DNA of 64,000 bases, taken from contig NZ_CP031312.1 of assembly GCF_004799685.1 (NCBI RefSeq), positions 310,001 to 374,000 of the forward strand. Direction: 5' to 3'. The notes below the pieces were generated by a model, which was given only the letters and a program-made list of their open reading frames with translations, did not search any database and was not told where the DNA came from. This document shows positions 38,797 to 43,396 of this stretch, piece by piece. Position 1 is the first letter of the stretch; each line of letters begins with the position of its first letter. Made by a program: the position numbers and the translations under genes. This DNA is from Halobellus limi (lineage in GTDB: Archaea; Halobacteriota; Halobacteria; Halobacteriales; Haloferacaceae).

Positions 38797-41451
38797 TCAC
38801 TCGTCCGCGGGGGCGTCGAACAGCGCGGCGAAGAGCTTCCGTTCGGCCGTCCGCAGGTGCCGGTTGAACGTGGGCTGGGTGATTCCCATCGCCGCCGCGA
38901 CGTCCTCTCCGGTACTGCCGCGCGGCCACTCGAAGTACCCGCCGAGGTAGGCCGTCCGGGCCGCCTCCCGCTGTCGGTCGGTGAGCCCGTCGGGGCCGAC
39001 CGTCGAACCGGCGACGGCGTCGCCGTCGGCCTCGCGGTCGCTCCGCGCCAGGAGCTCGACCGACTCGTAGCGGTCGGCGAGACTCTCGACGACGGTCCGG
39101 ACGTCGACCGCGGGCGGCAGCGTGACCGTCGCGTCGAATCCCCCGGCATCCGCGACCAGGCGGGCGACACTGCTGCCGTGGGCGGTCAGCCTGTCGACGA
39201 CCGTCGTCGCCGCGACCGACGCCTCGACCCGACCGTCCGCGTCGCCGTCGAGCGATCGGACCGACTCGACGGCGTGGACGCTCTCGGGCAGCGCCGTCGG
39301 GTCCGCCTCGGTGGTGAAATACAAAAGCGACCGGCCGTCGGCCTGTCGTACCCCTCCGTCGACGGAAATCGGTTCGTCGAGGGCGGACGCGATCCGCGGC
39401 AGGACCGCGTTCGGCCCGTCGATCCGGACTTCGAGTTCGACGACGGACCCGCTCTGGAGCGAGCGCCTGGTCTCGACGCTGTTGATCGCGTCGGCGACGG
39501 TGTCGCCGAGTTCCGCGAGCAGTTCGCAGAGCGCCCCCTCGAACGCCCCCCGTTCGTCGGCGTACACGGAGAGGACGCCGTACTCCAGATCGTCGTGCGA
39601 GAGCGGGACGCTGAGGACCGAACCGAACCCGCGAACCAGCGCACGCTCTCGCCACGGCGATCCGCGGAGCCCGTCGGAGACGTCCGGAACGTGGACCAGA
39701 GATCCGGTATCGAGCGCCCTGTGACTCGGCTCCCGGTCGGAGTGGTCCACGGGGACGTCGTTGGAGTCCGCCGCGGCGGATAGCGCGTCGAGGTACCCCT
39801 CGCCGGCCCCGGCTGAGGCGACCGGCCGCGGGTCCCCGCCCGTTCGGTACGTCTCTCCGATCCACGCGAAGGAGACGGACTCCGCCTCGACGAGGGGACC
39901 GCAGACCGCGGTCGCGATCCCCTCGAGCGTGTCGGCCTCGACGAGCGCCCCGTTGATGCGGCGGAGGAGGTCGTTGTACCCGTGGAGCCGCTGGAGCTGG
40001 CGGGTGCGCTCGCTGAGCGTCTCGCGGTGTTTTGATAGCTCCGCCTCGCGGTCCACCCGACCGAGCGCCGCGACCGCGTTCGCCGCCAGCAACTCCACGG
40101 ACTCCGCGACGTTGCCGGCGGGGTCCTCGTCCGAGAACTCGATTCGGAGCAGTCCGTACTCGTCGAGCGTCGCATAGAGCGTTCGCGTCCCGCTCGACTC
40201 CGTCCCGTCCGAGCGTTCGATCACGTGTCCCTGCGGCGACGTCCCCGCGTCGTCCGCTTCGCGTTCGTCGACCGAACCGGGACCGATGCGGTGGAAGCTC
40301 GGAGGCCGATCGCTCGGCTCCGCAGCCGTAGGGTCGGCCGGTCCGCCCGTCGCGTGCTCTGTCGGATCGACCGTCGTGTGATCGGTCGCCACCTCGGTTC
40401 GCTCGGCCGGGTTGTCCAGCCCGTCACCGGTCGAGAACGCTTTCCAGACCGTACTCCCGGGCGGACACACCTCGGGATCGTCCGTCGACGCCGCGACGGG
40501 TTCGAGCACGGACGCCGAGCGGTCCAGCGAGTAGGCGACGACCGTCGCGCTCGGCCACACCGACGTGGCGGCGTCGACGATCGTCCGGTAAACAGCCCGT
40601 TCGTCCGCCGCCCCCAACAGCAGCCGGGCGGACCGGTTCAGCTCCCGCAGGGCGTGTTCGTTCTGCTTGCGGTCGGTCACGTCCCTGATCACTCCGACGC
40701 GCTCTTGGCGCCCGTTCGCGAATTCGACCGACGAGAAGTGGGTCTCGATGGGGAGCGAGTCGCCGTCGGCGGTTCGGATCGACGACTCGATCATCCCGAC
40801 GTCGGAGTCGTCGCCGCGGAGTCGCTCGATGATCTCGCCCGCCATCGCGAGCGTCTCCTCGCCGGCGAGCATCGACGCGTGCGACCCGACGAGTTCCTCG
40901 CGGTCGTACCCCGTCATCGATGTGACCGCGTCGTTGACCGACGTGATGACGAACGCCTCGTCGAGCGTGTACACGCCGTCTTCGAGCGTTTCGAGGATCC
41001 GGTTCGACCGCTGGAGCTTCCGACGCGTCGCGACCCGGTCGCTGGCGTCTCGAAGAAGCAGCGCGACGGTGTCCTCGCCCGCGGGGACCGCGCGGAGTTC
41101 GAGCGTCCGCCCGCGGTCGAGCGTCGTCTCGGTCTCGACGACGCTGCCGCTGCGTTCGACCGCCTCGACGGCACTCTCCAGGTCGGGTCCGGCGACGGGG
41201 TCGATCGCTCGGAGATCCGATCCGACGGGATCCTCGTCGAGTTCGAGCAGTCGGGCGACCGTTTCGTTCGCGGCGGTGATCGTCGCCGATGCGTCCGTCA
41301 ACAGCAAACCCGTTATCGCTCGGTCGAAGAACGAACCCGCGTCGATCGAATCCGCTGGAAAATCGCCCATCCCAGTCATTTCGATCTCCCGGGCGTACGT
41401 GCTCGCGACACGTCGTTCAGTACCGCCTGGTAGAGATAAATTTTCCGTCAT
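38797..41451 (-). CDS. Bat-like PAS/GAF/HTH_10 transcriptional regulator
   Basis: An 884-residue sensor-regulator. PAS domains lie at ~30-135 and ~145-265 (e.g. ILETLEDGVYTLDEAF, then GVIRDVTDRKQ), GAF-like domains at ~275-470 and ~500-670, a bacterio-opsin-activator domain at ~675-825, and a C-terminal HTH_10 (LTDRQREAARTAYLGGYFEWPRG, MGITQPTFNRHLRTAERKLF). Bat in Halobacterium senses oxygen or light and activates bop and carotenoid genes. This one is divergent from a terpene-synthase-like gene. ATG 41449-41451 is chosen; a GTG at 41457 or an internal ATG at 41379 are alternatives. Confidence 0.88.
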   Translation of the reverse strand: MTENLSLPGGTERRVASTYAREIEMTGMGDFPADSIDAGSFFDRAITGLLLTDASATITAANETVARLLELDEDPVGSDLRAIDPVAGPDLESAVEAVERSGSVVETETTLDRGRTLELRAVPAGEDTVALLLRDASDRVATRRKLQRSNRILETLEDGVYTLDEAFVITSVNDAVTSMTGYDREELVGSHASMLAGEETLAMAGEIIERLRGDDSDVGMIESSIRTADGDSLPIETHFSSVEFANGRQERVGVIRDVTDRKQNEHALRELNRSARLLLGAADERAVYRTIVDAATSVWPSATVVAYSLDRSASVLEPVAASTDDPEVCPPGSTVWKAFSTGDGLDNPAERTEVATDHTTVDPTEHATGGPADPTAAEPSDRPPSFHRIGPGSVDEREADDAGTSPQGHVIERSDGTESSGTRTLYATLDEYGLLRIEFSDEDPAGNVAESVELLAANAVAALGRVDREAELSKHRETLSERTRQLQRLHGYNDLLRRINGALVEADTLEGIATAVCGPLVEAESVSFAWIGETYRTGGDPRPVASAGAGEGYLDALSAAADSNDVPVDHSDREPSHRALDTGSLVHVPDVSDGLRGSPWRERALVRGFGSVLSVPLSHDDLEYGVLSVYADERGAFEGALCELLAELGDTVADAINSVETRRSLQSGSVVELEVRIDGPNAVLPRIASALDEPISVDGGVRQADGRSLLYFTTEADPTALPESVHAVESVRSLDGDADGRVEASVAATTVVDRLTAHGSSVARLVADAGGFDATVTLPPAVDVRTVVESLADRYESVELLARSDREADGDAVAGSTVGPDGLTDRQREAARTAYLGGYFEWPRGSTGEDVAAAMGITQPTFNRHLRTAERKLFAALFDAPADE

Positions 41452-41579
41452 ATTCACGTATCATTATACGTTTCGGTGATAGCTACCGTTCGCGTAGATT
41501 GCGGGGGACGGGCGCCCCTGATCGATCGGGGCCGGCCCACAGGAACCACAGAAGTGATACGAAACCTTACCAGATATCT

Positions 41580-41592
41580 CGTGACAGTCACG
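41580..41592. promoter_or_regulatory. 13-bp palindrome in the divergent Bat / terpene-synthase promoter region
   Basis: CGTGACAGTCACG is a perfect palindrome around a central A, placed 43 bp before the plus-strand promoter box and ~130 bp before the regulator gene on the other side. It is a candidate operator for the adjacent HTH_10 regulator. Confidence 0.45.
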
Positions 41593-41634
41593 ATTTCATA
41601 CTTTTTTAGCTATGATTAAGATATGAACAAAAGG

Positions 41635-41640
41635 TTTAAT
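41635..41640 (+). promoter_or_regulatory. Promoter box of the terpene-synthase-like gene
   Basis: TTTAAT, within aaaaggtttaattcgg, lies 26-31 bp before ATG 41666, the spacing expected for a leaderless haloarchaeal mRNA. The surrounding 100 bp is strongly AT-rich. Confidence 0.55.
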
Positions 41641-41665
41641 TCGGTTATCGAGATACTAACCTCGT

Positions 41666-42679
41666 ATGGCACACGAGGCTCGCGGCCAGGTCACGACTAT
41701 CAGCGCCGAGACGGGCACGGACGTGGGGACGTATATGCGTACCGTCGAGGACGTCGAACTGCCCCCGATCGTCCGGGAGTACGCGAACCGGTACGACCGG
41801 GTCATCGGCGACAGGGACCGGTTCCTCTGGAAGTGGATCCACAACCTCTTCGAGGAGTTCACTCTCTCTTCCGTGTCGCCCGGGGCGTTGTCGGACGTCT
41901 ACGAACGAAAGACGTTGCTGACGATCTTCGTGACCGTGCTCGACGACCTCGCAGAACGCGGTGGCGACCGTTCGACGTTCGAGATCGGACGTCGCATTCC
42001 GTTTGGTGCCGAAGGGATCTCCGACACGGACCCGGACGCTATCGACGCCGAACTCCCCGTTCTGGAGTTGCTGGCGGACCTTTGGGCGGAGATCGACCGT
42101 AGCCTCCGTGAGGCGCCACGGTACGCCGCCTTCTCGGACGTTTTCGAGTACGACCTCCGGCAGACGTTCGACGCGATGGAGTACTCGGGACTGCTGAACG
42201 ACAACCCGATGATCGCGAACCGGACCGAAGCGGAGCAGCACGACGCCTACAATATGGCGATGTTCCCGTACGCGGGAATCGATCTGATGCACTCGCCGTC
42301 GTTCGACCGTGAGGAGTACGGCGCGCTCCGAAGCCTGATCTGCGACTTACAACAGATGGCCCGGATCGGCAACTGGATCACGACCTGGGAGCGCGAACTC
42401 GCCGAGGGCGATCTCAGTTCGGGCGTCGTCGTCTGTGCGCTCCGGCGGGGCGTGATCACTCCCGAGGAAGTGTCCGACGCGGACGAGTCGACGGTATCCG
42501 AACTGATCGATCGAATCAAGTCGCGCGGCATCGAGTCGGAGTTCGTCCGCGAGTGGGAGATCCGCAACGGGACGGTCCGCAAACGGACCGCTGAGGTCGA
42601 AAGCGTCGACGCCGACGCGTTCGTGGACGGCATCCAGGCGGTGATGAACCACCACCTGGCGAGCGAGGGATACAAGTGA
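41666..42679 (+). CDS. Class I terpene-synthase-like protein
   Basis: A 337-residue all-helical protein without signal or membrane segment. Two signatures of class I terpene cyclases are present at the right spacing: DDLAE at 93-97 (DDxxE) and NWITTWERE at 236-244, which matches the NSE/DTE metal triad N-x3-(S/T)-x3-E. About 143 residues separate them, as in known cyclases, and WERELAEGDLSSGVV after the triad resembles their helix H region. It would bind Mg-diphosphate and ionise a prenyl diphosphate. Whether it cyclises geranyl-, farnesyl- or geranylgeranyl diphosphate is unknown. A Bat-like regulator is divergent. Confidence 0.65.
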   Translation: MAHEARGQVTTISAETGTDVGTYMRTVEDVELPPIVREYANRYDRVIGDRDRFLWKWIHNLFEEFTLSSVSPGALSDVYERKTLLTIFVTVLDDLAERGGDRSTFEIGRRIPFGAEGISDTDPDAIDAELPVLELLADLWAEIDRSLREAPRYAAFSDVFEYDLRQTFDAMEYSGLLNDNPMIANRTEAEQHDAYNMAMFPYAGIDLMHSPSFDREEYGALRSLICDLQQMARIGNWITTWERELAEGDLSSGVVVCALRRGVITPEEVSDADESTVSELIDRIKSRGIESEFVREWEIRNGTVRKRTAEVESVDADAFVDGIQAVMNHHLASEGYK

Positions 42680-42703: not shown

Positions 42704-43396
42704 TTACGCCTTTTTCGCCGAGACGAAGTAGATCAGATTCGGGAGCCTCGTCGGCGCGAACGGCCACCCACGGACCTCGACGTCGCCGAACCGCTCTCGG
42801 ACGTCGTCGAGCAGGTACGTGTAGTTGTAGTACCGATGCCGTCTCGCGTGTTTTTCCCTTGGGACTCTCTTCCGAAGTTCGTCCGTCGTGTAATCGAAAT
42901 ACCGCCGCTTTCCATCGGGAATTGCTTCGTTCGTCGGATCGACGTAGCACCTGCCCAGATGACGGAGGAATCCACCGACGCCCACCTCGATGGGGATCGT
43001 GAGGTAGATCTCCCCAGTAGGATTCAAAGAGTCGTAGGCCGCTTCGATGAAGCCACGCTCGTCTTGTATGTGTTCGACGACACCTGCCGCGACGATGCAG
43101 TCGAACGATTCGTGCTCGAACGGGACCGGTGGGCTGGCGGCCTGTATCGGTACGACACTTTCTCCGTCTACTGCCTCGATTCTGTTCCGTTTCGGCTCTA
43201 CTGCGTAAATAGTGTCGAACGAATCCGAGATGTACTCCGTCTCGAATACTCCCGTTCCACACCCCACGCTCAAACAGGTGCCACCCGGCTCACCGACGAA
43301 AGACGCGAAATCCGAGAGCCTTCCGCTGTGGAAGCTCTTTAACAACCTGTCCCGGCCCACACCGCTCGCGTACATTTCGTGTCCAGTCTGTCCCAT
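42704..43396 (-). CDS. Class I SAM-dependent methyltransferase
   Basis: A 230-residue Rossmann methyltransferase. Motif I is LSVGCGTGVFETEYI (~43), the acidic residue after strand 2 is AVEPKRNRIEAV, and the post-motif segment is FDCIVAAGVVEHIQDE. The C-terminus is basic and aromatic (RRHRYYNYTYLLDDV). The substrate is unknown. It is convergent with the terpene-synthase-like gene (24 bp between stops), so a shared pathway is only suggested by proximity. Confidence 0.87.
   Translation of the reverse strand: MGQTGHEMYASGVGRDRLLKSFHSGRLSDFASFVGEPGGTCLSVGCGTGVFETEYISDSFDTIYAVEPKRNRIEAVDGESVVPIQAASPPVPFEHESFDCIVAAGVVEHIQDERGFIEAAYDSLNPTGEIYLTIPIEVGVGGFLRHLGRCYVDPTNEAIPDGKRRYFDYTTDELRKRVPREKHARRHRYYNYTYLLDDVRERFGDVEVRGWPFAPTRLPNLIYFVSAKKA

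Follow-up and report, generated by a model that had tools for sequence, protein, structure and literature searches.

The window analysed here is a stretch of 64,000 nucleotides from the haloarchaeon Halobellus limi. It contains a gene for a class I terpene synthase-like protein, and the features around this gene are summarized in Table 1. A gene for a PAS-GAF-BAT-HTH_10 regulator lies upstream of the synthase gene in the divergent orientation, and the same arrangement was found in the orthologue clade of the window gene. The perfect palindrome TCGTGACAGTCACGA, also upstream, occurs exactly once in the whole window; its right half-site TCAC was kept at the same place in most of nine orthologues and was TCAT in one. 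A GAACAAAA...TTAA block 20–40 nt ahead of the ATG was likewise conserved in most of the nine. Binding of the palindrome by the divergent regulator is an inference.

Table 1. Features of the synthase locus, numbered from the first nucleotide of the window.
Feature	Position	Strand	Remarks
HalOD1 output-domain protein, 81 aa	38447..38692	-	kept beside the regulator; PF18545 3.5e-16; cluster c17 in 6 loci
PAS-GAF-BAT-HTH_10 sensor/transcription regulator	38797..41457	-	886 aa from first GTG (start may be later); PF15915 8.6e-31, PF04967 8.2e-19, PAS, GAF
Perfect palindrome TCGTGACAGTCACGA	41579..41593	.	candidate operator; function inferred
GAACAAAA...TTAA block	41625..41645	+	candidate BRE/TATA promoter of a leaderless transcript; function inferred
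Class I terpene synthase-like gene	41666..42679	+	337 aa, ATG start; motifs at residues 93-97 and 236-244
Codons of DDLAE (residues 93-97), aspartate-rich metal motif	41942..41956	+	near-invariance in 88 relatives
Codons of NWITTWERE (residues 236-244), NSE/DTE-type metal motif	42371..42397	+	near-invariance; in register with an AtTPS18 stretch
SAM methyltransferase, convergent with the synthase gene	42704-43396	-	side observation

Because of its convergent position, the SAM methyltransferase was considered as a C-methyltransferase partner, as in the 2-methylisoborneol and sodorifen pathways. It was rejected for this locus as not conserved: among 14 genomes of the genus it was intact only in the window genome, and elsewhere a broken 32-residue remnant with a stop lay beside the orthologue of H. 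rarus, while a single further match was marginal and unlinked. The window genome also encodes two polyprenyl (trans-prenyl diphosphate) synthases, so that substrate supply for the synthase is plausible.

Motifs, profile matches and predicted fold

The DDxxE and N-x3-T-x3-E motifs claimed in the earlier note are present in the protein, 143 residues apart. To estimate how often such a pair arises by chance, the pattern DDxx[DE] plus N-x3-[ST]-x3-E at a spacing of 125–165 was searched in 20,000 shuffles of the window protein, where it occurred in 0.33%, and in 221 other genes of 250–450 aa from the neighbourhoods, where it occurred once. With a chance expectation of about 10 per haloarchaeal proteome, the motif pair by itself is weak evidence, and independent evidence was needed.

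PF19086 (Terpene_syn_C_2), one of the two profiles that the earlier note had proposed to search, was the sole Pfam match of the window protein (E 1e-4), aligning residues 86–271 with profile positions 3–187 of 199. The score of 22.5 bits was 1.2 bits short of the curated cut-off (23.7), and reached 24.4 bits with neighbouring pieces. This profile was matched by each of the 13 proteins in the first family alignment, the window protein included (best E 4.5e-6), and several relatives in other genomes scored over the cut-off. No NCBIfam model matched the window protein, and a single-sequence search of the PDB gave no useful match. A profile search of the PDB returned one match, the plant enzyme AtTPS18 (7bzb), at a weak E of 1.2, with NWITTWERE in register with its NDVGTYETE stretch.

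An AlphaFold2 model of the window protein built from 12 sequences had a mean pLDDT of 82 and a pTM of 0.83. With 16 helices and no strand, it agreed with the all-helical composition claimed before. In class I synthases, DDxxE is expected on helix D and the NTE triad on helix H; in the model, DDxxE ends helix 72–96 and the triad lies within helix 215–246. That both motifs line one shared cavity is inferred from the model without coordinate distances. Foldseek comparison with the PDB yielded 102 matches at E<=1e-3, headed by terpene synthases and farnesyl diphosphate synthases (FPPS). The top matches, all with probability 1.00, were the Streptomyces type I diterpene synthase 9m25 (E 7e-5), hydropyrene synthase 8b4l, aristolochene synthase and FPPS. 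A model without the isoprenoid-synthase alpha fold would, according to the earlier note, have refuted its proposal, and this did not occur. The TM-scores were modest (0.46–0.60), as expected at only 11–17% identity.

Conserved residues and missing anchors

Residue conservation was counted in 88 divergent relatives. D94, P151, D206 and W241 were invariant, and R50, W57, N236, T240, E244 and D249 were found in 87 of the 88. D93 was kept in 83 and replaced by N in 4, while position 97 was E in 69 and D in 18, and hence acidic in 87. R243, R222 and R233 were present in 85, 82 and 81 relatives, respectively. Together with the PF19086 match, its recurrence in all 13 aligned members and the fold match, the near-invariance of the ligands places the synthase motifs beyond chance. 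One family member, at L104:5698-6480 (-), has lost both metal motifs and is apparently decayed.

Several anchor residues of bacterial synthases, taken from PMC8450962, were not conserved. The position of the pyrophosphate-sensor Arg, 46 residues ahead of the triad, is E190 in the window protein and R in 11 of the 88 relatives, and no conserved Arg was found within positions 184–199 of these relatives. The C-terminal RY pair and the Asn 8–9 residues past the triad are not conserved either; the window protein ends in HHLASEGYK and has S and G at 252 and 253. The predicted helix break at about 194–198 holds a conserved (H/Y)-N-M instead (N196 in 71 and M197 in 76 of the 88). Since the family does not conserve the Arg sensor usually present in helix G, R233, one turn ahead of N236, R222 and R50 were inferred to be the best candidates for diphosphate contacts. 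By analogy with the plant RxxN/D arrangement, R233 may be a candidate substitute for the sensor Arg.

The family thus resembles the bacterial and fungal PF19086 synthases (8b4l, 9m25, aristolochene synthase) in its alpha fold, its length of about 300–340 aa, its Asp-rich motif near residue 90 and its N-x3-S/T-x3-E motif near 230 with K/R ahead of the E (spacing: PMC8450962). It differs from them in its 11–17% identity, in having W rather than D after the triad N, and in the absence of a conserved sensor Arg, RY pair and Asn 8–9 past the triad. The sestermobaraene synthase SmTS1 belongs to class I and is active, although its sensor Arg is likewise missing (G180) and the residue that follows the N of its triad is non-canonical (PMC8450962); a missing sensor Arg is therefore compatible with an active synthase. 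SmTS1 differs from the family in being a single, bacterial enzyme with GFPP as its shown substrate (PMC8450962). AtTPS18 shares R-x-x-N-x3-T-x3-E in register and was also a Foldseek match of the model of a divergent relative (L013), but has a further domain in addition to the weak sequence match. The enzyme class is known, and the family is a divergent variant of it without several of the usual anchors.

Distribution, neighbouring regulators and receiver fusions

Plants, fungi, bacteria and even a giant virus are known to have class I terpene synthases, while discussion of archaea has mostly centred on lipids, squalene and carotenoids. A member of the present family was identified in 120 of 391 sampled Halobacteria genomes (31%), representing 39 of 86 genera, and its presence within a genus is patchy. 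Other families of the phylum Halobacteriota also have members, which are more distant; one of these (L105), from a genome of 5,751,492 bases, has DDSCD and N-x3-T-x3-E. No relative was found in the viral contigs searched. In the tree, the window sequence grouped with those of Halobellus rarus and another genome of the same genus. A second copy in the window genome (C1:2546713-2547774) lies next to a type II/IV secretion ATPase, and in one haloarchaeal genome two synthase genes lie in tandem (L078:6308-8708, +). All five plasmid-borne relatives in PLSDB are annotated "hypothetical protein", as is WP_158059334.1. The remark that such enzymes are not a standard part of haloarchaeal annotation was thus right for the records checked, yet the gene itself is common. 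The window protein is one member of a large archaeal family, most of which has no annotation.

The haloarchaeal clusters that antiSMASH labels "terpene" probably represent squalene/phytoene synthases. Such clusters are described in one report (PMC8600319), in the text consulted without naming their enzymes. A preprint by Samusevich et al. (bioRxiv 10.1101/2024.01.29.577750), as cited in PMC12797696, claims in its title terpenoid biosynthesis in archaea; hence, we do not claim the first discovery of archaeal terpene synthases.

Neighbouring genes were called by codon usage and clustered over 49 loci. A regulator of the PAS-GAF-BAT-HTH_10 cluster was near the synthase in 18 of them. The window genome has 10 BAT matches over the cut-off, so that one of them would seldom be adjacent to the synthase by chance. 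In a different branch of the tree, the synthase is followed by a FilR1/HVO_A0261-type winged-helix regulator, with a 4-base overlap between its start and the synthase stop both in L012 and in an annotated Halorussus plasmid. PAS histidine kinases neighbour family members in L054, L097 and L105, a receiver-PAS-histidine kinase in L070 and a HisKA_7TM sensor in L015. No tailoring-gene family recurred among the clustered neighbours of the 49 loci, and a tailoring gene cluster was rejected on this ground.

Neighbours at ±1 (n = 58) were compared with genes at ±3–4 (n = 111) in 29 representative loci. FilR1 accounted for 7 of the 58 and at most 1 of the 111 (Fisher p 0.0025), PAS for 7 of the 58 and at most 4 of the 111 (p 0.040), and the two summed gave p 0.0002. 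These values ignore shared ancestry; regulatory adjacency is partly inherited synteny, and the strength and independence of the association are therefore overstated. The recurrence of different regulator families in different branches of the tree is the better argument.

Some single loci had further neighbours. A protoglobin-MCP transducer of the oxygen-sensor type lies directly downstream of a family member in L082:7994-9589 (+). L015:1-6347 contains a row of SAM methyltransferase, synthase, 7TM histidine kinase and polyprenyl diphosphate synthase; this contig is filed under a Lysobacteraceae MAG, has 30% GC and MraZ- and RsmH-like genes, and is probably mis-binned. At L105:5593-9683 (-), the distant homologue is flanked by the PAS histidine kinase and a SAM methyltransferase, so that methyltransferases flank homologues in both L015 and L105.

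In two proteins, and not in the window protein, a receiver and the enzyme domain were found in one frame. L117:787-2277 (+), in genome G075, is a single 497-aa frame with a receiver (PF00072, 8.1e-17), HalX (PF08663, 7.7e-7) and the synthase (PF19086, 2.2e-4), and L013:9506-10915 (+), in a Halodesulfurarchaeum MAG, joins a receiver (PF00072, 3.2e-18) to the synthase in frame. Over their full length the two proteins share 36% identity, and both metal motifs are intact in each. In the L013 model, the synthase part gave the same folds as the window model, including geosmin synthase and AtTPS18, and the receiver part was of low confidence. No further full-length match to the fusions was among the matches listed for the 391 class genomes. 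Long open frames upstream of the synthase domain in about 12 other loci were rejected as fusions, as they hold no real domain and look like non-coding high-GC frames.

The receiver, HalX, BAT and HTH_10 modules beside or fused to the family are those of archaeal REC-HalX and REC-PAS-GAF-BAT-HTH_10 regulators (PMC5847659). In this 2018 census of archaeal two-component systems, no terpene synthase is among the enzyme outputs named in the relevant section, and words starting with terpen- or isopren- are absent from its main text. Within the literature and genomes searched, the receiver-synthase fusions look new.

Interpretation and rival explanations

We propose that the window protein is a soluble, Mg2+-dependent class I terpene synthase, probably regulated on demand, from a divergent family found mainly in haloarchaea, and give this reading a probability of about 0.85. 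The open reading frame, motifs, near-invariance, profile match and fold on which it is based were observed; activity, substrate, product and regulation were inferred. The class I terpene synthase proposed in the earlier note is thus supported by PF19086, the fold match and the ligands as far as sequence and fold go. In the proposed mechanism, Mg2+ held by D93/D94/E97 and N236/T240/E244 would bind the diphosphate of a C15–C25 prenyl diphosphate (FPP, GGPP or GFPP), which could be supplied by the two trans-prenyl diphosphate synthases of the cell. The bound substrate would be ionised and the carbocation then quenched, giving a terpene hydrocarbon or alcohol. Metal-dependent ionisation, the substrate and a cyclised product all remain inferences for this protein. 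Production of the synthase would probably be on demand and controlled by the divergent PAS-GAF-BAT-HTH_10 regulator, which might act via the upstream palindrome; this is inferred from the conserved adjacency, the neighbour enrichment and the two receiver-synthase fusions. The Pfam score under the cut-off, the lack of an NCBIfam model and of a single-sequence PDB match, the modest TM-scores, the missing anchors and the lack of tailoring genes count against a synthase, and the position of the L015 homologue, with a SAM methyltransferase on one side and a polyprenyl diphosphate synthase on the other, counts in its favour.

Motifs and fold fix the ionisation of a prenyl diphosphate but not the fate of the cation. 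The protein might therefore not cyclise its substrate and be an acyclic synthase of the linalool, nerolidol or geranyllinalool type, or else a prenyl transferase whose acceptor is not an isoprenoid. FPPS structures, which matched nearly as well as cyclases in Foldseek, leave room for this, and sequence cannot separate an acyclic from a cyclic product; the second metal motif, however, is NTE and not DDxxD in 87 of the 88 relatives, and we consider such an enzyme unlikely, if a serious alternative. A relative of isoprenyl diphosphate synthases or squalene/phytoene synthases in normal lipid or carotenoid metabolism would share the superfamily fold. In prenyl elongases, the second metal motif is another DDxxD. 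The window protein lacks the two DDxxD motifs of isoprenyl diphosphate synthases, having one DDxxE and the NTE triad, and neither PF00348 nor the squalene/phytoene-synthase models of Pfam matched it even at E 10. Furthermore, a patchy distribution over 31% of genomes is not what one would expect of core metabolism, and we find this explanation scarcely tenable.

The repeated pairing with sensors, the two receiver fusions and the loss of some usual anchor residues would also suit a dead synthase-fold protein that serves as a ligand-binding or regulatory domain, for example by sensing prenyl diphosphates for the neighbouring regulator. Against this, the metal ligands are all kept across deep divergence, both fusions included, and the lone decayed copy seen, L104, has lost them, as expected if the ligands serve activity elsewhere. 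Such a role seems improbable, somewhat less so than a core isoprenoid enzyme. An active synthase may itself be part of signal transduction: sensors and two-component proteins could switch terpene synthesis, in some lineages via phosphorylation of the fused receiver, with the terpene or the drain on prenyl diphosphates acting as a signal or as a membrane or stress effector. We put this forward only tentatively, as a minority expectation. If it were true, a terpene synthase would be a new kind of response-regulator output.

The family occurs in about one third of the sampled haloarchaeal genomes, and other Halobacteriota have divergent members; it would make terpene synthesis of this type common among archaea and not something rarely imported. 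It would also add salt-adapted enzymes with an unusual diphosphate-binding site. Its members repeatedly lie beside signal-sensing proteins and are twice fused to them, which hints that archaea make terpenes on cue, and the receiver fusions would link two-component signalling and terpene production in a directly testable way.
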